Source of the DNA: Ligilactobacillus faecis
GTDB lineage: Bacteria; Bacillota; Bacilli; Lactobacillales; Lactobacillaceae
Length of the DNA stretch: 64,000 nucleotides
NCBI RefSeq assembly: GCF_029889745.1
Contig: NZ_CP123639.1
Coordinates: 934,501-998,500, forward strand
Direction of reading: 5' to 3'
Below the pieces are notes generated by a model. The model did no database searches, was not told where the DNA came from, and saw only the letters and a program-made list of their open reading frames with translations. Position 1 is the first letter of the stretch. Each line of letters opens with the position of its first letter. Positions 39,069 through 56,463 of this stretch are shown here, piece by piece. The translations under genes and the position numbers were made by a program.

Positions 39069-40622
39069 TTGGCTAATGTTGATATGCAGGCTTTTGACAA
39101 GATCATTGTATTGGATTTTGGAAGTCAGTATAACCAATTGATCACACGCCGTATCCGTGAGTTCGGCATTTATTCTGAATTGCTCTCCCACAAGATCACA
39201 GCTGAAGAGATCAAAGAAATGGCACCTAAAGGTATCATTTTCTCTGGTGGTCCAAACAGTGTCTACGATGAAGGTGCCTTCAAAGTTGACCCTGAGATCT
39301 TTAACTTAGGTATCCCTGTTTTAGGTATTTGCTACGGGATGCAACTGATGACGCATACGCTTGGTGGTAAAGTTGAAGCTGCTGATAACAAAGAATACGG
39401 TAAGGCTCAGATCACAGTGACTGATAAAGATACTGTGATGTTCAAAGGTCTTCCTAAAGAACAAACAGTCTGGATGAGCCACGGTGACCTCGTCACAGAA
39501 GTGCCAGCTGGCTTTGAAGTGACTGCTACAAGTGCTAACTGCCCGATCTCAGCGATGGCTAATGTCGCTAAAAACTTCTATGCTTTACAATTCCACCCAG
39601 AAGTGCGCAACACTGAATACGGTAATGATATTTTACGTCACTTTGCGTTTGACGTTTGTGGCGCAGTCGCTAACTGGTCGATGGCTGACTTTATCGACAT
39701 GCAAGTGGCTAAGATCCGTGAAAAAGTTGGGGATCGTAAAGTCTTACTTGGACTTTCAGGTGGGGTCGATTCTTCTGTCGTTGGTGTTTTATTACACAAA
39801 GCGATCGGAGACCAATTGACTTCGATCTTTGTTGACCATGGCTTGTTGCGGAAAGGTGAAGCCGAACAAGTAATGGAAAGTTTAGGGGGCAAATTTGGCC
39901 TAAACATCATCAAAGTCGATGCTAAAGAACGTTTTATGGATAAATTAGCCGGTGTTTCTGATCCAGAACAAAAACGCAAGATCATCGGAAATGAATTTAT
40001 CCGTGTCTTTGACGATGAAGCTACTAAGCTCAAAGGGATCGATTTCTTAGCTCAAGGTACGCTTTATACTGACGTGATCGAATCTGGAACAGATACGGCC
40101 CAAACGATCAAGTCACACCACAACGTTGGTGGTCTGCCAGAAGACATGCAATTTGAATTGATCGAACCTTTGAACACACTTTTCAAAGATGAAGTGCGTG
40201 AATTAGGTGAAAAATTAGGTATGCCACATGAACTTGTGTGGCGCCAACCATTCCCAGGTCCTGGTCTTGGGATCCGTGTTATCGGTGAGATCACGGAAGA
40301 AAAACTTCAGATCGTGCGAGACTCTGACCTTATCTTGCGCGAAGAGATCGCTAAACATGGCCTTGATAAAGAGATCTGGCAATACTTCACAGTTTTACCA
40401 GGGATCCGTTCTGTTGGGGTCATGGGTGATGGTCGGACATACGATTATACAGTCGGGATCCGGGCGGTGACTTCGATCGACGGGATGACAGCTGACTTTG
40501 CTAAGATCCCATGGGATGTCTTGCAAGAGATCTCAGTGCGGATCGTTAACGAAGTGGACCACGTCAACCGCGTCGTCTACGATATCACTTCGAAGCCACC
40601 GGCAACGATCGAATGGGAATAA
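39069..40622 (+). CDS. guaA: GMP synthase (glutamine-hydrolysing)
   Basis: Converts XMP to GMP using glutamine and ATP. 517 aa with the class I amidotransferase domain first: [18 protein letters not shown], the nucleophile Cys in GICYGMQLM, and the His in QFHPEV. The ATP pyrophosphatase domain has [11 protein letters not shown]. The C-terminus ends with [12 protein letters not shown] 39069 is preferred because GAGGTGA (39057-39063) is 5 bp upstream and MANVD is a typical start in lactobacilli. The last 15 bp serve as the attachment site of the adjoining mobile element, and the coding end is unchanged by the insertion. Confidence 0.97.
40608..40622 (+). other. attL, guaA-side attachment core
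   Basis: ATCGAATGGGAATAA covers the last codons and stop of guaA. An identical 15-mer recurs at 51543. Confidence 0.88.
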
Positions 40623-40732: not shown

Positions 40733-40738
40733 AAGACT

Positions 40739-40770
40739 CAATATGAAGAAATTCATATTGGGCCTTTTTT
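40739..40770 (+). terminator. Terminator at the left end of the element
   Basis: CAATATGAA pairs with TTCATATTG across GAAA, followed by GGCCTTTTTT. It shields the element from guaA read-through. A weaker AAAGCC/GGGCTTT hairpin lies at 40647-40667. Confidence 0.8.
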
Positions 40771-40827: not shown

Positions 40828-42775
40828 ATGGCAGTAGAACCAAAAGTAATGGAGCATGTACGCTCTGTTCTCGAACAGTTTGATAATAAGTACATAACTG
40901 CTGAGGGCGTTTTAAAGCGGAATAGTGTTATTGAGGACTTAGATAAGTATGAGCATGATTTAATGACAGCCTTGTTATCTGATGAATTAATTCATAACTC
41001 TTATACTGAAAAGATTGCAGATGTTGAAGTGTTTAAAGTTAATCAATTTATTGAAATGCTTGAATTTAAGAGTTATTGGGAAGATAGCTATACCAAATAT
41101 TCAAATAAAATAGGTTTAACAGCAGGTGGGAAGTTTATTGATGAGTCAGCTGATGTAGTTTTAGATTTTCCGTTTAAAGATACTGTTTTAAAGGCAGGCA
41201 TGAGTAAAGAAGATTTGGAAAATTCAGCTGATGCTGATGAACCATTTTTAAATGAAGTGATTGCTAAGCCTGAGATTGATGAATTATTTGAACCGAAAAT
41301 TTTGGTAAATGCTAAAAAATTTGATGGTTCGGGGGGGGGCGAACATTACCTACATATCTAATGATGATAATTTAGTTATAAAAGGAAATAATTTAATTGC
41401 ACTACATAGCTTGAAAAAACGTTATGCGGGTAAAGTAAAGCTGATTTACTTAGATCCCCCATATTATTTTGATACAACTAAACCAAGTGATGCTTTTATG
41501 TATAATTCTAATTTTAAATTATCTAGTTGGTTAACATTTATGATGAATAGGTTGGAAATAGCTAGGGAGTTACTTTCAGATGATGGAGCTATATTGTTAT
41601 CTATTAGTGAAAATGGACAAGCATATTTAAAATTGTTAATGGATAGTACTTTCGGAAAAGAAAACTTTGTTGAAACTTTTATATGGAGAAATACTGATAA
41701 CGCAGATTCTATAAGTAAAAAAAGTCGTTCAGGTGTTGAGTATGTTCATGCATATGAAAAAATAAAAGATTTATCAAAAAGATGGATTGGTAAGGATACA
41801 GAGAATGGTGATGCCCCGTTACTTAATAATGGAAATGGTATTACTAAGAAATTTTTTGTTCCAGGAAGTGTCCATTTTAATATAGCTGATGGAATTTATA
41901 CAGCTGGAGTCTATGGAAATGTAGAGGTACTAGAAGATTTAGAAGTTAAAAATGGAAAAAATGCTAATACTTTAGTAATGAATGGTCGCTTTAAGTGGTC
42001 GCAGGAAACTATAAAAAAAGAGATAGAAAATGGTACATACTTCATTGTTAAATCTGATAAATTTTCTATTAGATTTCAACGTAAAAATGCAAATCCTATG
42101 GCTCCTGAAAAGTTTATTGAAGAAAGATATTTATCGAAAATATTTGGTGTTGGTACTAATGAGGATGCTACTTCACATTTGAAGAGCTTGGGTATAGATT
42201 TTACCAACCCTAAACCGGAGTCGTTACTTGCATTTTTTATAAGAGCAATAACAGATGAGAACGATATTGTTTTGGACTTTTTTATGGGTTCAGCAACCAC
42301 TCAAGCAGTAGCTATGAAGATGAATCGCCAATTTATCGGTATTGAACAAATGGATTATATTAATACAGTATCGGTCCCCAGGTTACAAAAGGTAATTGAG
42401 GGAGAACAAGGTGGCATTTCTAAAGATGTCAATTGGCAAGGTGGCAGTTCATTCGTTTATGCTGAATTGATGGAGAAAAATCAAGGGTATTTGAAAGATT
42501 TACAAGAAGCGCAAACAGTTCCTGAACTTATGTCAGTATATGGACGAATGAAAGAAAGTGCTGATATTGATTTCAGACTTGACCTTGATAAGTTTGAAAA
42601 GGAAATAGAACAATTTACTGGCTTGGACGATAGACGAAGAGAGTTTGTTAGAATTTTAGATAAAAATCAACTTTACTATAACTATGCCAATATTGATGAT
42701 GAAAATGTAAGAGATTTGCTTTCAGATTCTGACTACCACTTTAATAAGTCATTTTATGGCGAGGATGGTGAGTAG
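40828..42775 (+). CDS. mod: Type III DNA methyltransferase (Mod), out of frame at a G9 tract
   Basis: N6-adenine methyltransferase and recognition subunit of a type III restriction-modification system, about 648 codons if read through. ATG 40828 follows AAGGAGTTGGAG. The first 170 codons run to a run of nine G (41331-41339), after which the present frame ends at TAA 41359-41361. With one G fewer (or two more) the frame joins GGANITYISNDDNLVIKGNN. The catalytic part then follows: LIYLDPPYYFDTTKP (motif IV, DPPY), the central recognition region, and DFFMGSATTQAVAM plus FIGIEQMDY (motif I region), the beta-class order of type III Mod. As assembled the product is a 177-aa fragment (OFF). Two bp separate it from res. 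Confidence 0.88.
41331..41339 (+). repeat. G9 homopolymer in mod, likely phase-variation tract
   Basis: Nine consecutive G in an AT-rich gene, encoding Ser-Gly-Gly. The downstream frame is restored with 8 or 11 G, so slippage would switch the gene between ON and OFF. Confidence 0.85.
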
Positions 42776-42777
42776 TT

Positions 42778-45402
42778 ATGGCTAAGAAGAAACAATCTAA
42801 AGGATTACCTTTGTTAGAGGAGATTAATAAGTTTCAACAAACAAGTTTACTTGAAGCAGATGAAGCACTTGACTATAAAGTTGGCGACTATATTAGTGAT
42901 AATTTAAAGCATGAATTGAGACCTTATCAGGCACAAGCTTTATATGCACTTAACTATACACAAACTAGGGACAAGAAATATAATCAATTATTATTTAATA
43001 TGGCTACAGGTTCGGGTAAAACTGATACTATGGCTTCGGTAATTCTCTATATGTATGTTGAGTATGGCTATCAAAATTTTGTTTTTGTGGCAAATACTAA
43101 TGCGGTGGTATCAAAGACTAGAGAAAATTTTTTAAATGATAACTCCCCTAAGTACCTTTTTAATACTCCGATTAGTATTGACGGACAAAGAGTTGAAATT
43201 CGAGCTGTAAATAGATTTCCGGTAGTTCAAAAGCCGGGAATTATATACTTAAAGCTTACAACAATCCAGTCCTTAGCTAATGAATTGGGGAGTTCTAGAG
43301 AAAATGGCTTAACATATGAAGAGTTAAAGAAAAATAAGCTTGTAGTATTAGCTGATGAGGCACACCACTTTAATGCAAGCACAAAGTCTCAAAAAGTAGA
43401 AGAAAAATCATGGGAAATTTTACTTGATAAAGTTAGAAATTCAAATTCAGATAATCGACAATTTGAATTTACAGCTACCATAGATATTGATAAGGAACTT
43501 GTTTATGAAAAGTACAAAGATAAAATTGTGTATAAGTACGATTTAGATAAGTTCATGAATGATGGTTATTCAAAGAATGTCTACCGTTTGGAAGCTCAAA
43601 ATGAAGATAGTGTGAAAATGCTCAATGCTGTTTTATTGAGTCAATATCGCAAGCGGATTGCGCAAAAGGTAGGGGTTGAAAATTTCAAGCCTGTTATTTT
43701 GTTTAAATCAAACCGAGTTGCTAACTCAATACAAGCTAAAGACGATTTTTTAGAAATGATTGCCGAATTAAATGCTGAAAAACTGGCAAACTTTTTAGCT
43801 GAACAAAATAATATCAATCATAGTACGACTTTAAAGAAGGCTTATAACTATTGGATGAAGCAAGATTTTGCAGAAACAGTGGTTGAATTAAAGCGAGACT
43901 TTAAACCTTTGACAACCATTAATGTTAATGATACAGCTAAAGAAGGTGTTCTTGGTGATAAGAATGACTTTAATAACTTGAATACCTTGGAAGATATAAA
44001 TAACCCTCTTAGAACAGTTTTTGCAGTTGCTAAACTTACTGAAGGTTGGGACGTTTTAAATCTGTATGATATTGTGAGAATTGGTGAACAACCTGTAACT
44101 GCTAATCAGACCAATAGCGAAGCGCAGTTAATTGGTCGGGGAGCTAGATACAATCCGTTTGTATACAAAGGAGAAAGGTCTTATACTCGTCGTTTTGACC
44201 GAAGCAATCCAGACCTAGAATTATTGGAATCACTTTTTTATCACACTATTAATGATGTGAAGTATATCAATAATTTACTCAAGTCCTTTGATAAGATGAA
44301 TTTGGTATCCGAAAGTGATAATGACAATGACTATAGTGTTTATACTGCCACAGTTAAGGATAGCTTTAAGCAGTCTAAAGCTTATAAGTTTGGAAAACTA
44401 TATCATAATCAGTTAGAAGCTGTTCCTGAATCGGCTTATAACAACTTGGGAAGTTACGGATTTAACCGCAATACAATCACGATCGATATGAATGATAGTA
44501 TTTTAGAACATGCTAAAAATCAGGAAAGTAAGATTAATGAAGCAAGCAGTCGTGAAGAAATTATTGCTGATTTTTCAAAAGTTAGGGATTTACGATTACT
44601 AAAGAAAGCAATGTCCAGGGATAAATTCTTTAGATTTGCCGAATTATCTAAGTGGCTTCCTAGCTTGAAGTCCTTAGATGAGTTTATGACATCTAGAGAT
44701 TGGCTTGGGAATCTGCGAATAAATGCGATAGTACCATATAACAGGCTGGATTCTCAACAAAATAATAGCTTTAGATTATTAGTTGTTGTTCAAGCGTTAG
44801 CCCAAGTTAAGAGTTCTATTAAGAGAAATTATTTAAAGAAACGAGGAACTAATAGATTTGATTCAGTTCCGTTGAAAGATATAGTAATTGATTATACTAA
44901 GCGTGTGTCTAATAGTAGTACAGGTGTGCAAGCTTTAATTAAGCCAGAACCTATGGATAAAGATGACTGGTTTGTGTATGACCAAGCTATTGTAGACGGG
45001 TTAGAAAAAAACTTAATTGAAATGATTAGAGGGTTGGTTACTGAATTAAAAAAGGAATACAAAGAGGTATTCTTGATTCGTAATGAAGAAACTATCAATA
45101 AGCTTAAGATATACGATTTTGATAATGATGGTAGTAAAGATATTTTACATTATGAAGGCTTTATGCCAGATTTCCTGCTTTATCTAGATAACGGTCAAGT
45201 AACCTATCAATTATTCATTGAGCCAAAAGGGGACCAGTTATTAGAAAGAGATAGTTGGAAAGAAAAATTACTAAAGAAAATTAATCCCGAAAATATTGAG
45301 CTTATCGGTGAAAATGATGATGTGCGATTATATGGGGTGAAATTCTTTAGGTTCGGTAATGGTCGTGAAATTGAAACAGAAATAACAGAAATATTAGAGT
45401 AA
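42778..45402 (+). CDS. res: Type III restriction endonuclease subunit (Res)
   Basis: 874-aa helicase-nuclease that works only in complex with Mod. The superfamily 2 helicase core has MATGSGKTDTMASV (Walker A), VLADEAHHFNAS (DEAH box), FTATIDIDK (motif III-like) and LTEGWDV with QLIGRGARYNP (motif VI). The C-terminal PD-(D/E)xK nuclease is visible as MPDFLLYLDNG and QLFIEPKGD. ATG 42778 starts 2 bp after mod, so translation is likely coupled. When mod is OFF, Res should be inactive, since type III cutting needs Mod for DNA recognition. Confidence 0.92.
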   Translation: MAKKKQSKGLPLLEEINKFQQTSLLEADEALDYKVGDYISDNLKHELRPYQAQALYALNYTQTRDKKYNQLLFNMATGSGKTDTMASVILYMYVEYGYQNFVFVANTNAVVSKTRENFLNDNSPKYLFNTPISIDGQRVEIRAVNRFPVVQKPGIIYLKLTTIQSLANELGSSRENGLTYEELKKNKLVVLADEAHHFNASTKSQKVEEKSWEILLDKVRNSNSDNRQFEFTATIDIDKELVYEKYKDKIVYKYDLDKFMNDGYSKNVYRLEAQNEDSVKMLNAVLLSQYRKRIAQKVGVENFKPVILFKSNRVANSIQAKDDFLEMIAELNAEKLANFLAEQNNINHSTTLKKAYNYWMKQDFAETVVELKRDFKPLTTINVNDTAKEGVLGDKNDFNNLNTLEDINNPLRTVFAVAKLTEGWDVLNLYDIVRIGEQPVTANQTNSEAQLIGRGARYNPFVYKGERSYTRRFDRSNPDLELLESLFYHTINDVKYINNLLKSFDKMNLVSESDNDNDYSVYTATVKDSFKQSKAYKFGKLYHNQLEAVPESAYNNLGSYGFNRNTITIDMNDSILEHAKNQESKINEASSREEIIADFSKVRDLRLLKKAMSRDKFFRFAELSKWLPSLKSLDEFMTSRDWLGNLRINAIVPYNRLDSQQNNSFRLLVVVQALAQVKSSIKRNYLKKRGTNRFDSVPLKDIVIDYTKRVSNSSTGVQALIKPEPMDKDDWFVYDQAIVDGLEKNLIEMIRGLVTELKKEYKEVFLIRNEETINKLKIYDFDNDGSKDILHYEGFMPDFLLYLDNGQVTYQLFIEPKGDQLLERDSWKEKLLKKINPENIELIGENDDVRLYGVKFFRFGNGREIETEITEILE

Positions 45403-45541: not shown

Positions 45542-46570
45542 CTAATTTAAAAAGTGATCTTCACTCAATTTTTGAATACTTTCATCTAATCTTTTTTTAA
45601 TATAATCGGCTTCGTCATAGACCCTATTAGCGACTTCAGCATTCCTAATTCCTCCACCATATAATTTTTTTTGCCTAAGGGCCTCTTTTTGTCTAACTTC
45701 GGCATTACCAATGCTCCCTTTAACATTAATTCCACCAATAACTTTAAAATATAAATCATTAAAAGCGTCTTTATATAATTCTAATAATTCTCGATTATAT
45801 TTATCGTTTTTTTCTTTAGTATCAATGGCGTTCTCAAATTCACTTTCAATCCTATGAGAAATATAATCATTACGAGCTGTATCATTTTTAATAATTATAT
45901 CGATAATTTCGTTATAGACACTATCAAGCAAGTCAGGAGAAGCATTTTTATTAAGTACTTTAATTTCATCAATAATTTTTAATTTTTCTTCCTGGTTTCG
46001 TTTATTATTATTTTTTCTAATTCTATCAGTTTTAACTATGTCTACCAAAATATTTTTGTATCCAGTCAATGATGGTTTCTTTAAAGATGAACTTTTTTTA
46101 GCAGTTAAATTTGGAATTTCATTTCTATAATATTTAATAAGAGAGTTGAGGAGACTTTCGTGAATATAAATTTCATTATCATTTTTATATGTTTTAATAT
46201 GTTTTTCAGAACCGTTAAGTTGATGAGCTTTTTTTAGAATAACATCACGACTCTTTTTATTTTTAAAACCTATTGGGTCATCGAAAATAGGATGGATAAT
46301 TTTTCCATCGTCATCATACTTTTCAGCACCATTAACTTTGTTTACAACTTTATTCAGTGAATACCATTTTTCTTTTGTGTTTGGATTTTGAAGGATTCCA
46401 TAAACGTTTGCACGAGGATCCTCAGTATAAGTATTTTGGGGAATACCATTAATGACTTCGACAGCCGTTTTACTCTCAATAATTGTGGCTCCCTGTAGTT
46501 CCGGTGGGATAAAAACAGGAGTAGGTTCGTATGGGATTACTTCATTGTATTTAAAATATATCTTTTTCAC
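45542..46570 (-). CDS. Unrecognised 342-aa protein, element cargo
   Basis: I do not recognise this gene. It is hydrophilic, has no signal peptide or membrane helix, and is rich in Asn and Lys. The N-terminal half (KKIYFKYNEVIPYEPTPVF, then NVYGILQNPNTKEKWYSLNK) looks globular. The second half is helical and charged, with possible coiled coils (NNNKRNQEEKLKIIDEIKVL, RQKEALRQKKLYGGG). A repeated GNAEVRQKE / RNAEVANRV motif occurs near the C-terminus. It is convergent with the R-M genes and separate from the mobility module, the position of a defence or stability cargo gene. The ATG at 46570 follows AGAGGGAA in the reverse complement. Confidence 0.75.
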   Translation of the reverse strand: MKKIYFKYNEVIPYEPTPVFIPPELQGATIIESKTAVEVINGIPQNTYTEDPRANVYGILQNPNTKEKWYSLNKVVNKVNGAEKYDDDGKIIHPIFDDPIGFKNKKSRDVILKKAHQLNGSEKHIKTYKNDNEIYIHESLLNSLIKYYRNEIPNLTAKKSSSLKKPSLTGYKNILVDIVKTDRIRKNNNKRNQEEKLKIIDEIKVLNKNASPDLLDSVYNEIIDIIIKNDTARNDYISHRIESEFENAIDTKEKNDKYNRELLELYKDAFNDLYFKVIGGINVKGSIGNAEVRQKEALRQKKLYGGGIRNAEVANRVYDEADYIKKRLDESIQKLSEDHFLN

Positions 46571-47277: not shown

Positions 47278-48372
47278 ATGGATATAGATATTCTAGCATA
47301 TCTTGAAGCAGTACTCATGTATACCGCGTTTACCAATGCTGACCAAAACAGGGAGTATTCTATTGAACAAGTTGAAGAAGGCTTTGTTTTCATACCAATC
47401 TACCCTATAACCTATGTAATAGATGAATCGTTCTATAACAAGCTATTTACAATTCTTAATCTAGCCTTGACGCCTATGTATACTCTAATTCGCCCTTTAA
47501 CAATGCAAGTGGTTACATTAGAAGGAAGAGACCCGTCAAGGTCAAGGGGATTGTTAATACCAGCACGTAAAGGTAAACCATCACGATTAAAAGGTACTCT
47601 AAAGGAATTAGTAAACCAATCGAAAGAAAAAGACGGTATAGCAATTATGAACCTTATCACGTGGGATTACATTAGGAGCCCCCATGCCTGTATCACCGGT
47701 GTGAGTGGTTCCGGGAAATCGTATTTCCTGAAGTACCTATTCATGATTTGTTCAACTATTGGTGACACAGTTGCGATTGACCCTAAAGGTAGTGATTTAG
47801 CAAGGTTAGCTAAAAAGCGAGGGACGGAAGATATTGTTATACCACCGTTTGTTAATGGTGAAGATGGAAAAAATGGTATTGGTGGTAGATTCCTACAAGA
47901 TGTGATCAATACTTTAAAGCGGGTGGAATCCATAATGTATGAACGTCAAAGTAAGCTATATCAAACAACCAGTAGAGTTTCAACAGATTATCGTGAATTA
48001 GGTATAGAGCCCATTTTTGTATTCATTGATGAATTATCAGCATTAATGACAGGGGCAAGTAAGCAAGTGAAACAAGATTTCCAAGATACTTTAACTAGGT
48101 TAGTAGTACTAGGTCGTGAAGCAGGAATTTATCTGATTTTGTCCATGCAGTCGGCAAGAGCGGAGTATTTACCAACTATTGTTAGAGATTCGATTTCTTT
48201 ACGTGTTCAGCTTGGACGAATTAATTCAGAAAATACACGCTTTTTGTTTCCTGAGCTATCAGAAATGCCTATGGTACCTATTGGTGGTAAAGGTTCGGGG
48301 ATACTTTCAATCGCAGGAGACCCACGTTATGCAGGAATTGAACCAGTTTTGACACCGACAATTTTAGATTAA
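47278..48372 (+). CDS. FtsK/TcpA-like coupling ATPase
   Basis: DNA-pumping or coupling ATPase that would deliver the nicked element to a conjugation machine. Walker A is GVSGSGKSYFLKYLF (near residue 140), Walker B is FVFIDELSALM, and LVVLGREAGIYLILSMQSA follows, typical of the FtsK-SpoIIIE/TcpA group. The length (364 aa) is shorter than Tn916 Orf21 and lacks long N-terminal membrane helices. ATG 47278 has no ribosome site. A strong AAGGAGG (47233-47239) instead fits ATT codons at 47245 or 47248, in frame, giving an N-terminus of LSNRNSHEPMDID. The true start may therefore be a rare ATT. Confidence 0.87.
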   Translation: MDIDILAYLEAVLMYTAFTNADQNREYSIEQVEEGFVFIPIYPITYVIDESFYNKLFTILNLALTPMYTLIRPLTMQVVTLEGRDPSRSRGLLIPARKGKPSRLKGTLKELVNQSKEKDGIAIMNLITWDYIRSPHACITGVSGSGKSYFLKYLFMICSTIGDTVAIDPKGSDLARLAKKRGTEDIVIPPFVNGEDGKNGIGGRFLQDVINTLKRVESIMYERQSKLYQTTSRVSTDYRELGIEPIFVFIDELSALMTGASKQVKQDFQDTLTRLVVLGREAGIYLILSMQSARAEYLPTIVRDSISLRVQLGRINSENTRFLFPELSEMPMVPIGGKGSGILSIAGDPRYAGIEPVLTPTILD

Positions 48373-49360: not shown

Positions 49361-49942
49361 ATGAAGGTGAAGCAAAAGGAAGTAAGGTCATCAAAATGGG
49401 CATTTCTTGTATATGAAGAAAGTGCGCCGAAAGACTTTATTGAAAAGTTAAACAGTAAGCATGTACCTTATATTTTGAGTCCGTTACACAACTTAGATGT
49501 TAATTCAGAAACAGGGGAATTAAAAAAAGCTCATTGGCACGGGTGCTTATTCTTTGAATCGTTGAAAAGTCAATCACAAGTTTCTGAATTACTTGCAGAT
49601 TTGAATGGTCCTAAATATGTTGAAGTAGTTCACTCCCCTAAAGGTATGTATGATTACTTTGTCCATGCTGAAAATCCTGACAAAACCCCATATAAAGTAG
49701 AAGATATTAAGTCAGGTTGCGGATTTGATTTAGTGAAATTCATGCGTGAACAAGGTGAAGATGAATTTGTAGCTAAAGTTATTGATGTAATTGAGGAAAA
49801 TGATTTTTATGAATTTCGTGAGCTTGTTTCATACGCAAGAAAAGAAGATATGGAACTATTAAAACTTATTATTAGTAGAGCTTATTTTTTCGTAAAATAT
49901 TTAGATTCAAGAAGAAATGCGATGAGAGATAATGAAAAATAG
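49361..49942 (+). CDS. rep: Rolling-circle replication initiator/relaxase, RepB (Rep_2) family
   Basis: 193 aa, close to RepB of pMV158 (about 210 aa). HUH endonuclease: the metal-binding motif is KKAHWHGCLFFES and the catalytic Tyr lies in GMYDYFVHAENPDKTPY. The N-terminus RSSKWAFLVYEESAP and LSPLHNLDVN fit the family. The protein would nick at the TACTACGAC hairpin upstream and start rolling-circle replication of the excised circle, and could double as relaxase for mobilization. No helicase domain is present, so a host helicase such as PcrA would be needed. ATG 49361 has a modest AGGTGAT site. Confidence 0.88.
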   Translation: MKVKQKEVRSSKWAFLVYEESAPKDFIEKLNSKHVPYILSPLHNLDVNSETGELKKAHWHGCLFFESLKSQSQVSELLADLNGPKYVEVVHSPKGMYDYFVHAENPDKTPYKVEDIKSGCGFDLVKFMREQGEDEFVAKVIDVIEENDFYEFRELVSYARKEDMELLKLIISRAYFFVKYLDSRRNAMRDNEK

Positions 49943-50041: not shown

Positions 50042-50254
50042 ATGGCAACTATGGATAAACAAATGATAAATTTTGAAGACCTGGTAAAAATGGGTTTTCC
50101 TGCTAATCAGGCAAGAAATATTATTCGGGAAGCTAAGGGAATACTTGTATCACGAGGATATGGGTTTTATAATGGTAAACGAGTAGGGCTTGTCCCATCA
50201 TCAGTTGTTGCGGAAATTATTGGCTTACCATCAATAGATGAAGGGGCAGATTGA
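50042..50254 (+). CDS. DUF3173-like small protein, excisionase candidate
   Basis: 70 aa (67 if started at ATG 50051). NFEDLVKMGFPANQARNIIR and GYGFYNGKRVGLVPSSVVAE match the DUF3173 pattern found just upstream of tyrosine integrases in Gram-positive ICEs and IMEs, where a helix-turn-helix excisionase-like role is proposed. AAAGGA sits at 50034-50039, closer than ideal to 50042. Its stop overlaps the integrase start. Confidence 0.75.
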   Translation: MATMDKQMINFEDLVKMGFPANQARNIIREAKGILVSRGYGFYNGKRVGLVPSSVVAEIIGLPSIDEGAD

Positions 50255-51462
50255 TGATGAAAAAGACAAGATATGCTAATGTTTACCAAGATAGTAAAGG
50301 AAATTTTTTCTACCAAGTGTTTCTTGGTCGTGATGAACATGGAAAGCAAAAATTTAAAAAGGGTAGGAAGGACACAAAAGGTAATCCATTTTCCTCTGCT
50401 AGGTCAGCATATATTGAAGCTGTAAAAATTAAGAATAACTATTTTGAGAGTAGCGGTAAGGTAATTTATCGCATGACCTACAAGACCTTTATGCTGAAGA
50501 AGTATATTCCTAAGTATAAGGGAGATGTTGAGGAAAGTACTTTTTTATCGCATTCTAAAGCTTTTGATTATGCAATTAATCGTTTAGGTGATAAGTTACT
50601 TGAAGATATTACAGTACTTGACTGTGAGGAGTATCGTACCTGGCTACTAACAGAAAGTGGATTTTCTAAAAGTTACTGTAGCATGGTTTATATTTCATTT
50701 CGCCAGTCATTAGAATACGCTGTTTCAGTAGGTATTTTAGATGTAAATGTTTCAAGGAAAACAAAGTCAATTCCTAAGGGAAAAGCAGTAGTTGCTTATT
50801 GGGATAAAAAGCAATTTGAAAAGGTTATTTCAAAATTTTGTATTGATGATTACCATGAATATTTTTGTTTCATGATGATTTGGTTTTACTTTATGACTGG
50901 TGTTCGAGTTAGTGAAGCGTTGGCTTTGAAATGGTCTGATATTGATTTGAAAAATGCTAAAGTGCGAGTTCACCACACGTTGGAATACAAAAATAAACAA
51001 AATTATACCATTAAGCCATATACTAAAACAGCTAGCGGAAAGCGAGTTATTTCGCTAGATTCTGATACAGTTAATTTTCTGAGAAAATGGAAAAAGGTTC
51101 AAAGAGAACACGGGGTTAGAAATTTTGTTATTTCTTATGATGATACTCCAACCAGTCGATCGGTGGTTAATAAAATTGTTAAGAGGTATGCCAAATTAGC
51201 AGGAGTACCGGAAATTGAAGCTAAGGGGCTTAGACATAGCCATGTTTCATACTTAATCAATGAATTTAACGCAGATGTGTTGACTGTATCGAGACGTTTA
51301 GGACACTCCGGACCAGACATTACTCTAAAACATTACAGCCATTTATGGAATAGAAATGATGATAGCCTAGCTGAGTTGATGACGGGTAACATAAAGGTTA
51401 AATTTTCTAGAAAAAGACAAGCAAGTTTTAACGGTAATCAGGTATTTAAAGTCAATAAATAG
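50254..51462 (+). CDS. int: Tyrosine-family site-specific integrase
   Basis: 402 aa from ATG 50254, with AAGGGG (50241-50246) 7 bp upstream. The N-terminus has an AP2-like arm-binding region (YQDSKGNFFYQVFLGRDEHG), followed by a SAM-like core-binding domain. The catalytic domain carries Arg in MTGVRVSEALALKW, the HxxR of KGLRHSHVSYL, the His of LGHSGPD and the nucleophile Tyr in LKHYSHLW. It catalyses integration and excision between guaA and the circular element. The gene lies 81 bp from attR, the usual position. Confidence 0.93.
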   Translation: MMKKTRYANVYQDSKGNFFYQVFLGRDEHGKQKFKKGRKDTKGNPFSSARSAYIEAVKIKNNYFESSGKVIYRMTYKTFMLKKYIPKYKGDVEESTFLSHSKAFDYAINRLGDKLLEDITVLDCEEYRTWLLTESGFSKSYCSMVYISFRQSLEYAVSVGILDVNVSRKTKSIPKGKAVVAYWDKKQFEKVISKFCIDDYHEYFCFMMIWFYFMTGVRVSEALALKWSDIDLKNAKVRVHHTLEYKNKQNYTIKPYTKTASGKRVISLDSDTVNFLRKWKKVQREHGVRNFVISYDDTPTSRSVVNKIVKRYAKLAGVPEIEAKGLRHSHVSYLINEFNADVLTVSRRLGHSGPDITLKHYSHLWNRNDDSLAELMTGNIKVKFSRKRQASFNGNQVFKVNK

Positions 51463-51542: not shown

Positions 51543-51557
51543 ATCGAATGGGAATAA
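51543..51557 (+). other. attR, right attachment core
   Basis: ATCGAATGGGAATAA, identical to the end of guaA at 40608-40622. Confidence 0.88.
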
Positions 51558-51747: not shown

Positions 51748-54700
51748 ATGAGTACATTTAACGAATTAGTAAATCAAATAGATAATAATATAACAAATCA
51801 AAGAGATAGGGGCACAGCTTTTGAAAAGTTGGCAGTTGCTTATCTAAAGAACGAACCGGCGTTTAAAAATAAATATTCTGATGTTTGGATGTTAAGTGAA
51901 GTACCAATAGAATATAATATTTCTAAACAAGATACCGGTGTTGATATTGTCGCTAAAGATCGTGTCACGGGAAAACTTACCGCAGTTCAAGCTAAGTACT
52001 ATAAAGGAAAAGTAGGAAAAGACACTATTAACTCTTTTATTGCTGAAAGTTGTAAAGATTACTACGCTGATGGAATGATTATTTCATCAACTGATGATTG
52101 GAATAAAAATGCTAAAAAAGCAACTGAAGAATTATCAAAAGATATTTCAATCATTGGATTATCACAACTTCAAAATGCAAATTTTGATTGGCAACTATTT
52201 GACTTTGATTCCCAAAATGAAAATTTAAGTTGTGAGCCTAAAGAATTACGAGATTATCAAAAGGAAGCGATTGAAAAATCCTTAGCGTATTTTAAAGAAA
52301 ATACACGTGGGAAGCTTGTCATGGCTCCAGGGACAGGGAAAACCTTTACAAGTTTGAAGATTGCCGAAGCACTAATGACAGAAACAGACACGGATAATTT
52401 TAATGTCTTATACTTAGTTCCAAGTATTCAGTTACTTTCGCAAACACTATTTAACTGGAATTCTGATAAGTCGGATGATATTTCAATGGTTTCATTTTCC
52501 GTTGTATCTGATAAAAAGGCAACGAAAAAGAAAACAGGTGTAGATGACTTAAGTGCTAAAGATGTTGGTTTTCCTGCTACAACTAACGTAGATGAACTAT
52601 TGGAGAATTATACTAATGTTCGAAATCAGGCACAAAAGACGATGGCGGTGGTATTTTCAACATACCAATCCATTGATGTTATTTCTAAAGCACAAAATCA
52701 AGGATATCCTAAATTTGACTTGATTATTGCTGATGAAGCCCACCGTACTACTGGGGCAAGTCAGATGGGAGACGCTAGTGTATTTACTAAAGTTCACGAT
52801 AATAGCATTGTGAAGGGAAAGTTACGTCTTTACCAGACAGCAACACCAAAAGTTTATGGTCCAGAAGCTAAGAAGAAAGCAGATGATAATAGTATGGTTA
52901 TTTCATCGATGGACGATGAAGCAAAGTATGGTGTAGAAATATTTCGTTTAGGTTTTGGAGATGCTGTTTCACGAGGATATCTAACGGATTATAAAGTATC
53001 AGTACTTGCGGTTAGTGAAAATTACATTAACAAAAATATGCAGGCGGTTATGGCTTCTAGCACTAGCGAACTCGATACGAATGATATTGGTAAAATTATT
53101 GGCGTGTGGAATGCTATGGTTAAAAGAAATGGTATTACTGGCGAAATTACGGGAGCACCAATGAAACGTGCAATTGCCTTTACCGATACGATTGCTCATT
53201 CAAAACAAATTGCCGAAGAGTTTAATTATGTAATAAACGATTATCTTGGAGCACAAGCAGATGATAGTTTCTCTGTTGATGTTCACCATGTTGACGGTGG
53301 ATTAAATGCGCTTCAAAAGAAAGCTCAGCTTGATTGGCTTGCTAGTGATATGGAAGATAATGAAGCTAGGGTATTGTCTAATGTTCGTTTTTTAACAGAG
53401 GGTATTGATGTTCCTAACTTAGATGCTGTTATTTTCTTATCACCTAAGAAATCACAAGTTGATATTGTTCAAGCCGTTGGGCGAATTATGCGTAAATTTG
53501 AAGGTAAGGAATATGGTTATATTATTTTACCAGTAGTGATTGATACTAACTCAGATCCCGTGGCTGTTCTTGACAATAATGATAGGTATAAAGAAGTCTG
53601 GCAAGTACTAAATGCTTTACGGTCAACTGACGAACGTTTTGAAGCTGAGATCAATAAACTTGAACTTAATAAAAAGAAGAGTGGCAGAATTAATGTTATT
53701 GGGACTAACACATCACCTAATGAAGCCGTTACAGAAGATAATGGTAAGAATATTGAAAATGGTGAAGGTAATCAACCGGTTCAACTTGAATTAGATTTAG
53801 ATGAGATGTCAGATTTGGAACAAGCGTTTTATGGACGAATTGTTAAGAAGGTGGGTGATCGCCGTTATCTTGAAGATTGGTCTAAAGATGTTGCTGAAAT
53901 TGCTAAGCGTCATATTACTAAAATTAACGATTTGATTGATAGTAGAGAAGAAGCAAAAACAGCTTTTAATATATTCTTAACTAGTTTACAGCACAATATT
54001 AATTCATCAGTCGATAGAAAGCAAGCAATTGAAATGTTGGCTCAACATCTTATTACGCAACCTGTCTTTGAAGTTCTTTTTGAGGGTTACAGTTTTGTTA
54101 AGGATAACCCAGTATCTCACGCTATGAATGATGTGGTTGACGAATTTTCTAAGTATGGCTTTGATAAAGAACAAAAAGAATTGGCACCATTCTATAAATC
54201 TGTAAAATTAAGAGCTTCTGGAATTGACAATGCTGAAGCCAAGCAAAAGATTATTGTTACACTTTATGATAAGTTCTTTAGAACTGGTTTTAAAGAGACT
54301 ACTGAGCAGTTAGGAATTGTTTTCACCCCGGTTGAAGTAGTTGATTTTATCATTAATTCAGTTGACTATGCTTTAAATAAATATTTTGGTAAACGTCTTT
54401 CAAGCAAAAATGTGCATGTTTTAGACCCATTTACTGGAACGGGTACCTTTATAACAAGAACCCTTCAATATCTAAAAAGACAGATGGATGGAGGAGAAAT
54501 TACGTTTGAAGATATCCTCTACAAGTATAATCACGAGTTACATGCTAATGAAATTATTTTATTGAGCTACTATATTGCGTCGATTAATATTGAATCTGTT
54601 TTTGATGAAGTAAATGGTCCTAACCATGGATATCAACCTTTCGAAGGTATTGTCTTAGCAGATACATTTGAGAGTACAGAGCGTGAAGGTTCATTTGTGG

Positions 54701-56463
54701 ATGAGCTACTAGGGGAAAATAATGAACGGTTAAAAAAACAACAAGAAAAGCCAATTACAGTAATATTTGGCAATCCACCATATTCTGCAAAACAAGATAA
54801 TGAGGATAAGAACTATTCAAGGGCTAAATACCCTAAACTTGATAATTCATTGAAGAAAACATGGATTGATACATCGTCAGCGATAAATAAAAATGGATTG
54901 ATGGATTCGTATATAAAAGCGATAAGATGGTCTGCAGATAGATTATCAAACGATGGAATTATTAGTTTCATTACAAACAGTTCATACATTGATGGTGTGG
55001 CAATGGACGGAATGAGAAAAAGTTTATTGAACGAATTCTCAGATATTTATGTTATTGATTTAAAAGGTCAAATTAGGAGACGATCAAAAAAGCAAATTGC
55101 AAATGAGGGTGGAAATATCTTTGATATTATGACAGGTGTTGCAATAATTTTATTGGTTAAAGATAGTAGTAAAGGCAAAGGAAAAGGAAATTTACATTAT
55201 TTTGATATTGGAAATGGTCTAACTAAAAAAGATAAACTTGAAAAGTTAACGAAATTAGGAAGTATTGCCAATATTGAAAATGTTGCGGAACTTATTGAAC
55301 CAAATGAAAAAGGGGATTGGATAAATCAAAGAAATTCAAATTTTGAAACACTCCTAAAATTAGGGGACAAAAAAAGTAAGGATGGACTATTTATAGATTA
55401 TACTGGTGGAATTACTACAGGTAGGGATGATTGGTCTTGGGGATTCTCAGAAACAGCAGTTTATTCAAAAATAAATACGCTTGTGAATTACTATAATGAA
55501 CATTTAGGGGATACTAGTGTATATGATGAAGATAATACCTCTATTTCTTGGACACGTTCTTTAAAACAAAGGTTTGAGAAGAAAGAAAAAATATCCTTTA
55601 AAGACTACAGAATTTACACAGGAATGTATCGTCCATTTGTTAAAAAGCATGTCTACTACTCACAAGAGCTAGTAGACAGGCAATACCGTATGGCTAAGGT
55701 ATTGCCTGTCTCAGATAGTGATAACATTATGATTTCATTGTCAAATAAAACAGAAGGTAAGGATTTAACCCTACTTGCTTTAAATGTTTTACCGGATAGA
55801 AATTTATTTGCAGGTGGTTCGCAAAACTTACCTAAATATTTATATGATGGCTTAGGCAAGTATTCATCTGTTCGTCAAGAACAGCTAAAAAAATTGGTGG
55901 GATTAGACGAAGAAGATGTATTGGCTTATATCTACGGTTTGTTAAGTTCTAGTGATTATGAAAATTTATACGCTTTAGATTTGGCGAAAAGTTTTCCTCG
56001 TATTCCTAACGTTAAAAATAAAAAAGCTTTTATTGATATTGGAAAGAAATTAATGGACTTACATCTTAATTATGAAGAAGTTCCGGTATTTAAAGGGGTT
56101 TCTATTGAAAAGAAGTCTAATCCAGACTATAGAGTTAAGAAGATGAAGTTTGCTAGAGTGAGGAATCCAGAAACTGGTAAACTTGAAAACGATCGTTCTA
56201 CAATTATTTTTAACACTGATATAACAATTAAAGATATTCCTGAAAAGTCGTATGAGTATATTGTTAATGGTCGTTCTGCTATTGAATGGATTATGGACCA
56301 ATATCAAATTAAGGATAAAACAAAGTCAGGAGTCATTGACGATCCTAATGATTTTAGTGATGATCCCAAGTATATTTTTAAGCTCTTGCTTCGAATTATA
56401 AATGTCTCGGTTCAAACTGTTGACTTGGTCAATAGTTTGCCTAAGCTTGAGGAAGTAGAGTAA
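51748..56463 (+). CDS. Type ISP restriction-modification enzyme (single polypeptide)
   Basis: 1571 aa, the size of LlaGI/LlaBIII-type enzymes, which combine nuclease, translocase, methyltransferase and target recognition in one chain. Residues about 20-110: Mrr-like PD-(D/E)xK nuclease with Asp in DTGVDIVAKD and AVQAKYY. About 170-620: superfamily 2 helicase with KLVMAPGTGKTFTS, LIIADEAHRTTGA and QAVGRIMRKF. About 880-1100: N6-adenine methyltransferase with VLDPFTGTGTFITR (motif I) and VIFGNPPYSAK (NPPY). The C-terminal 400 residues should hold the target recognition domain. ATG 51748 follows GAAAGGG. All motifs look intact. Ile codons are ATT-rich, suggesting acquisition. Confidence 0.93.
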   Translation: MSTFNELVNQIDNNITNQRDRGTAFEKLAVAYLKNEPAFKNKYSDVWMLSEVPIEYNISKQDTGVDIVAKDRVTGKLTAVQAKYYKGKVGKDTINSFIAESCKDYYADGMIISSTDDWNKNAKKATEELSKDISIIGLSQLQNANFDWQLFDFDSQNENLSCEPKELRDYQKEAIEKSLAYFKENTRGKLVMAPGTGKTFTSLKIAEALMTETDTDNFNVLYLVPSIQLLSQTLFNWNSDKSDDISMVSFSVVSDKKATKKKTGVDDLSAKDVGFPATTNVDELLENYTNVRNQAQKTMAVVFSTYQSIDVISKAQNQGYPKFDLIIADEAHRTTGASQMGDASVFTKVHDNSIVKGKLRLYQTATPKVYGPEAKKKADDNSMVISSMDDEAKYGVEIFRLGFGDAVSRGYLTDYKVSVLAVSENYINKNMQAVMASSTSELDTNDIGKIIGVWNAMVKRNGITGEITGAPMKRAIAFTDTIAHSKQIAEEFNYVINDYLGAQADDSFSVDVHHVDGGLNALQKKAQLDWLASDMEDNEARVLSNVRFLTEGIDVPNLDAVIFLSPKKSQVDIVQAVGRIMRKFEGKEYGYIILPVVIDTNSDPVAVLDNNDRYKEVWQVLNALRSTDERFEAEINKLELNKKKSGRINVIGTNTSPNEAVTEDNGKNIENGEGNQPVQLELDLDEMSDLEQAFYGRIVKKVGDRRYLEDWSKDVAEIAKRHITKINDLIDSREEAKTAFNIFLTSLQHNINSSVDRKQAIEMLAQHLITQPVFEVLFEGYSFVKDNPVSHAMNDVVDEFSKYGFDKEQKELAPFYKSVKLRASGIDNAEAKQKIIVTLYDKFFRTGFKETTEQLGIVFTPVEVVDFIINSVDYALNKYFGKRLSSKNVHVLDPFTGTGTFITRTLQYLKRQMDGGEITFEDILYKYNHELHANEIILLSYYIASINIESVFDEVNGPNHGYQPFEGIVLADTFESTEREGSFVDELLGENNERLKKQQEKPITVIFGNPPYSAKQDNEDKNYSRAKYPKLDNSLKKTWIDTSSAINKNGLMDSYIKAIRWSADRLSNDGIISFITNSSYIDGVAMDGMRKSLLNEFSDIYVIDLKGQIRRRSKKQIANEGGNIFDIMTGVAIILLVKDSSKGKGKGNLHYFDIGNGLTKKDKLEKLTKLGSIANIENVAELIEPNEKGDWINQRNSNFETLLKLGDKKSKDGLFIDYTGGITTGRDDWSWGFSETAVYSKINTLVNYYNEHLGDTSVYDEDNTSISWTRSLKQRFEKKEKISFKDYRIYTGMYRPFVKKHVYYSQELVDRQYRMAKVLPVSDSDNIMISLSNKTEGKDLTLLALNVLPDRNLFAGGSQNLPKYLYDGLGKYSSVRQEQLKKLVGLDEEDVLAYIYGLLSSSDYENLYALDLAKSFPRIPNVKNKKAFIDIGKKLMDLHLNYEEVPVFKGVSIEKKSNPDYRVKKMKFARVRNPETGKLENDRSTIIFNTDITIKDIPEKSYEYIVNGRSAIEWIMDQYQIKDKTKSGVIDDPNDFSDDPKYIFKLLLRIINVSVQTVDLVNSLPKLEEVE

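Follow-up and report, generated by a model that had tools for sequence, protein, structure and literature searches.

Phase-variable type III methylation is known chiefly from pathogens; a single Gram-positive case has been worked out in detail, and the slippage mechanism behind such switches is already established. In type III systems, the restriction subunit Res requires the methyltransferase subunit Mod, as established for EcoP1I and EcoP15I. The S. suis methyltransferase ModS, with its GAGCA(n) repeat, is the first type III phasevarion of a Gram-positive organism (PMC8125046). Among mobile elements, the combination of a PF01719 protein, a TcpA protein and an integrase marks a recognised class of non-canonical integrative and mobilizable elements (IMEs), and the 3' end of guaA is a known site of IME integration (PMC5704250). 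The locus described here, in which a G tract interrupts a type III mod gene next to guaA, comes from Ligilactobacillus faecis. The window is the whole 64-kb stretch of DNA that was analysed, and its relevant features are the following.

40608..40622, + strand: attL core, the 3' end of guaA, ATCGAATGGGAATAA (repeat search)
40737..40762, + strand: hairpin resembling a terminator, with a T tail, in the guaA-mod interval (consensus match alone)
40828..41361, + strand: 5' part of mod with PF12564, the OFF-state 177-aa stub (ORF reading, domain match)
41309..42775, + strand: downstream frame of mod, a 488-aa ORF with an internal ATG, holding the beta-class methyltransferase, the target recognition domain (TRD) and the C-terminal domain (ORF reading, domain and PADLOC matches)
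41331..41339, + strand: G9 tract at codon 168 of mod, putative contingency (slippage) site at its OFF length in the present assembly
41453..41464, + strand: catalytic motif IV, DPPY (translation)
41687..42211, + strand: TRD region (11-18% identity to relatives, against 58-91% in the flanks)
42275..42301, + strand: SAM-binding motif I, DFFMGSATT (translation)
42778..45402, + strand: res, intact, 874 aa (74% identity to L. salivarius res)
45542..46570, - strand: 342-aa ORF between res and the transfer genes (ORF reading)
47278..48372, + strand: FtsK/TcpA-like coupling protein (domain search)
49361..49942, + strand: PF01719 rolling-circle Rep/relaxase-like protein (domain search)
50042..50254, + strand: small DUF3173 ORF adjoining the integrase, in a putative excisionase-like position (domain search)
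50251..51462, + strand: tyrosine integrase, PF00589 (domain search)
51543..51557, + strand: attR core, an exact 15-bp copy of the guaA end (repeat search)

The interrupted mod gene and its element

Direct reading of the + strand places nine uninterrupted G at 41331-41339, within a mod gene whose GC content is 0.32. The upstream ORF (40828-41361) stops 22 bp past the tract. The distance from the ATG at 40828 to the last stop of mod at 42775 is 1948 nt (3 x 649 + 1), one base over a multiple of three, and therefore the loss of one G or the gain of two restores a single frame; with 8 or 11 G the gene reads as one continuous frame. The length of this simple repeat, which lies within the ORF, determines the frame, the defining property of type III mods that are phase-variable through simple sequence repeats (SSRs). 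Beyond this frame break, neither mod nor res carries a further lesion.

The identity of the cassette is supported by domain and motif content. PF12564 matches the N-terminal part of mod and N6_N4_Mtase (PF01555) its downstream part, PADLOC classifies Mod as MTase_III (E=2.4e-132) and Res as REase_III (E=3.5e-208), and the gene after mod has a ResIII match (SF2 helicase domain, E=2.3e-27). Based on the order DPPY, TRD, DFFMGSATT in the translation, Mod is assigned to the beta class. The N-terminal and methyltransferase domains, the motif order and the adjacent helicase-bearing res are together those of a beta-class type III system. Motif I reads GSATT instead of GSGTT, as it does in most L. salivarius homologues. 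A sequence search of solved structures returned 6k0w, EcoP15I (4zcf) and Mbo45V (7dsu) as relatives of Mod, with the best match beginning past the tract. The predicted structure of the L. murinus Mod has a mean pLDDT of 51, too low for assigning the tract to a loop. The window genome also harbors a second intact type III mod-res (L138:2230-6891; G000:C1:1270729-1275390) that lacks a repeat. The original prediction had described nine G in an AT-rich gene, a frame ending 22 bp past them, and frames that 8 or 11 G would join into a complete beta-class Mod beside an intact res; the position of the run and the GC content, the 1948-nt span, and the domains, motif order and open 874-aa res all agree with that description.

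Runs of this kind are rare in the genome. The longest other G-run in the window is 6, and only two sites in the 2.38 Mb genome reach G8 or longer on either strand, the second of which is on a 3 kb plasmid. When the codons of the in-frame mod were shuffled, a G8 run was reached in 36 of 20,000 shuffles; a dinucleotide shuffle of the whole window is a weaker test that covers runs of seven.

Between the two guaA-end repeats lie mod, res, the 342-aa ORF, the FtsK-like gene, the PF01719 Rep gene, the DUF3173 ORF and the tyrosine integrase. IMEs are marked by an integrase and by direct repeats at an established insertion site (here the guaA ends at 40608 and 51543), and a relaxase-type PF01719 protein with an FtsK-domain coupling protein but without mating-pair genes of its own is the composition of the non-canonical class. 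No mating-channel family matched among the scanned ORFs of the element, three of which are without assignment, and the 342-aa ORF (45542-46570, - strand) has no match in Pfam or PADLOC. As judged from gene content, mod-res is probably the cargo of an integrative and likely mobilizable element at the guaA 3' end, and the 15-bp guaA-end repeats, the integrase and the FtsK-like and Rep genes back the earlier claim that mod is part of a mobile element. The stretches of L. murinus and L. salivarius resemble this one in mod-res only, not in the genes of the element itself, and the cassette has therefore moved between different vehicles. Immediately to the right of attR, at 51748-56463, is a gene for a 1571-aa single-polypeptide restriction enzyme-methyltransferase (PADLOC REase_MTase_I, type ISP-like). 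A right end of the element beyond this gene was ruled out, since the guaA end recurs only once, at 51543, ahead of this gene.

Tract lengths and recognition domains in homologues

The closest relatives in the plasmid collection are L. salivarius megaplasmids, in which each cassette consists of three tandem mods and one res (L070:4014-12560, L071:2698-11286, L072:3742-12223 and L073:2912-11500). Poly-G is present in 12 of 12 L. salivarius mods, at the same linker immediately 5' of NLVIKGNNLIAL. The tracts of ZLS006 are 8/8/8, with three intact mods; those of IBB3154 are 10/8/7 (off/on/off); those of UCC118 and CECT 5713 are both 9/9/10, with all three mods off. UCC118 and CECT 5713 are near-identical at the locus and therefore count as one observation, leaving three independent strain states. 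Frame analysis of these mods revealed that each G8 copy is open and that each copy of another length (7, 9 or 10) is split. Outside the mods, no G or C runs of at least 6 were detected in 82 kb of the four L. salivarius megaplasmid stretches. The regions 5' of the arrays contain a half-length hsdS and an N6 methylase, with a site-specific integrase in three of the four stretches.

In pairs that include an OFF copy, dN/dS 3' of the tract is 0.04-0.08 and there are no other stops, and the OFF copies were therefore functional through most of their history. Purifying selection on OFF copies fits reversible slippage, not decay, and dN/dS and frame matching led to the rejection of a pseudogene explanation for the split L. 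salivarius mods. The original prediction of a probably phase-variable mod proposed homologue tract lengths as a check. The L. salivarius linker holds 7, 8, 9 or 10 G rather than a fixed non-repeat sequence, and the prediction is backed by this frame-matched variation together with the purifying selection. Strain-to-strain variation in length with matching intact and split genes is thus a finding from L. salivarius homologues rather than from within the window species, which is represented by one genome in a single assembly.

Other homologues mark the same linker as a hot spot for repeats of different kinds. The L. murinus homologue has GGGGGGAG where the window has nine G, an interrupted stretch of 8 nt that is in frame. 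The most direct reading is that the window has a hypermutable tract whose in-frame length would be 8 (mod 3). A second, distant L. murinus mod (L140:4764-10264; G017:C31), with a 295-aa ORF between mod and res, carries (CAGAG)12.8 in the equivalent linker, in frame; the unit is the same as that of the S. suis modS GAGCA(n) repeat, which was shown to switch (PMC8125046). A more distant mod in another genus (G388) has an out-of-frame G11 slightly 5' of the linker. This mod, which contains a long N stretch, and its res (L142:1396-9071; G388:C9) lie directly behind guaA, and no integrase was seen in their vicinity. The mod at L143:125-4781 (G339:C12) is split at an A7 in the linker and has an in-frame G8 near its N-terminus; its A AAA AAA could also permit -1 frameshifting. 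A long repeat in the linker is absent from other homologues, including Bacteroidetes ones and the second type III system of the window genome. Across 398 Lactobacillaceae genomes, 4 of 21 matches (E < 1e-80) are in genes that bear such a tract, a proportion similar to the published figure of 17.4% for REBASE type III mods (PMC7394358). Viral contigs yielded one distant relative and no tract, and a loose AATGC...G7 pattern search of the 398 family genomes returned mostly unrelated matches.

Long G tracts also occur elsewhere in the genus. In another Ligilactobacillus species, a G8 (L120:1501-1508; G018:C3) lies in a C5-cytosine methyltransferase-like gene that is split into two frames around it. 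Tracts of G9-G11 are found at L109 and L131, 5' of ORFs like those of surface proteins, at L116, where a membrane-protein gene changes frame, and at L111, with no large ORF close by; these four are possible further contingency loci.

The specificity region varies sharply between conserved flanks. The window Mod has 11-18% identity to its relatives in the TRD, compared with 80-91% in the N-terminal and 70-79% in the C-terminal parts; overall, TRDs are 11-23% identical between alleles and 92-99% within them, with flanks at 58-99%. In L. salivarius, four TRD alleles are distributed over three slots, with identities of 92-99% within alleles versus 12-23% between them. The allele in ZLS slot 1 is that of UCC slot 2 and IBB slot 2, ZLS slot 2 corresponds to UCC slot 3, ZLS slot 3 to IBB slot 3, and UCC slot 1 to IBB slot 1. 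Independent tracts in three mods allow up to eight ON/OFF combinations in addition to reassorted specificities. With moderate confidence, the window mod can be viewed as a single-copy, element-borne relative of the L. salivarius array, in which three poly-G-switched mods with different TRDs that change slots share one common res. A given cell would then be in one of eight states of methylation and restriction, and the whole would constitute a combinatorial defence and epigenetic cassette moving among lactobacilli on plasmids and integrative elements.

Interpretation of the nine-G state

Very probably, the mod tract switches the gene on and off reversibly through slippage during copying. In the proposed mechanism, the G-run would gain or lose single Gs at replication. 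With 8 (or 11) G, the ribosome would read a full Mod of about 648 aa, which would methylate an adenine motif specified by the TRD and also license Res to cut unmethylated DNA. With 9 G, the assembled state, reading would end 22 bp past the tract, and in the absence of full Mod both modification and restriction would be off. Taken as a whole, a slipped-strand contingency site in a type III mod, giving full Mod at G8 or G11 and the loss of modification and restriction at G9, in a cassette carried by a guaA element, is the account held with high confidence. It implies that slippage would take place in the window species and that the OFF state would mean loss of methylation and restriction; switching may further alter gene expression through a regulon, and the OFF state may benefit transfer by protecting a naive recipient.

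The G9 in the assembly may be real, may reflect a mixture of lengths or may be wrong by one base. It is unlikely that mod is constitutively expressed from a stable G8 and that the ninth G arose from an error in sequencing or polishing. Consensus errors most commonly concern a single base of a homopolymer, every intact close relative is in frame with eight bases, and G-tract lengths in Bifidobacterium differed from the deposited sequence (PMC9187656). Such an error, however, leaves unexplained why the three independent states of L. salivarius cover 7, 8, 9 and 10 G, with several lengths within a single assembly, and even with a miscalled base the tract would be a hypermutable G8. A one-base insertion that inactivated mod for good, in a cassette now decaying, would account for the broken frame of the window mod, and family relatives in clear decay do exist, such as G261:C4:2891 with its three stops. 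This is nevertheless very improbable: mod and res have no other lesion, the N-terminal part and the segment just past the tract are conserved relative to L. murinus (dN/dS of 0.064 and 0.067, respectively), and the alternation of intact and split genes matches the frame across strains.

The remaining alternatives concern what a G9 gene would produce. Transcriptional slippage is possible on long homopolymers, and the downstream mod frame is intact, which would allow RNA polymerase slippage or ribosomal frameshifting to yield some full Mod at G9 with the tract tuning its level. A role of this kind is considered quite unlikely, given that the ribosomal shift required is +1 (one base skipped) rather than the common -1 and that the L. 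salivarius lengths occupy all three frames, a pattern not favoured by recoding tuned to one length. A -1 ribosomal frameshift on the window mod is ruled out, as the frames require +1. At G9 (mod 3), the one length class that puts it in frame, the ATG at 41309 could instead yield an N-truncated Mod, and OFF might therefore not equal zero activity. Extended to a switch of three states, with full Mod at G8, an N-truncated Mod of altered activity at G9 and none at G7 or G10, the idea draws on the downstream-frame ATG, which lies just 5' of the tract both in the window and in the L. salivarius genes with G9, where ORFs of 470-500 aa retain all methyltransferase motifs. It is doubtful, since the ATG falls out of conserved Val-Asn-Ala codons that are also found in tract-free homologues, and by sequence reading no good ribosome-binding site precedes the ATG at 41309.

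Significance and comparison with known systems

A poly-G switch in a type III mod of lactobacilli is unreported in the searchable literature, consistent with the original prediction that such switches are little described in these bacteria; an earlier listing of the UCC118 mods is possible. The host genus, the element cargo and, above all, the tandem three-switch array look new in the searchable literature, which offers partial coverage and holds no description of such an array. Switch-like mods now extend to commensal and probiotic-related lactobacilli, including UCC118, the sequenced L. salivarius reference strain, whose deposited sequence has three of three mods out of frame. If slippage switching is correct, a culture of one genotype would contain cells that differ in phage resistance, transformability and perhaps gene expression. 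The locus also suggests that switches travel as the cargo of integrative elements and that split mod genes in sequence records are switches rather than broken genes.

The window element resembles the non-canonical IMEs in its PF01719 Rep, FtsK-like coupling protein, tyrosine integrase and 3' guaA site, but differs in that its cargo is a probably phase-variable type III restriction-modification (RM) system and in that its mobilization is a prediction (PMC5704250). Poly-G slippage in a Gram-positive gut commensal has a counterpart in the pilus G-tracts of Bifidobacterium breve, which act on surface pili whereas the tract in the window would act on RM (PMC9187656). The NgoAV hsdS gene of N. gonorrhoeae likewise has a G(n) tract within an RM gene; NgoAV hsdS, however, encodes a type I specificity subunit whose truncation alters specificity, in contrast with the predicted on/off control of a type III Mod (PMC7394358). 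The modA genes of Haemophilus and Neisseria, H. pylori modH and other SSR-bearing type III mods share with the window an out-of-frame repeat that turns Mod off and TRD alleles that exchange within a conserved frame; they differ from it in host, here commensal lactobacilli, and in vehicle, and the L. salivarius relatives have three tandem, putatively switchable mods with one res. Similarity to S. suis ModS includes a type III mod, a repeat of strain-variable length in the 5' part of the ORF, and conserved N- and C-terminal regions around a variable TRD, whereas the window mod has poly-G in place of a pentamer, is borne by a guaA element and is known here from its sequence (PMC8125046).
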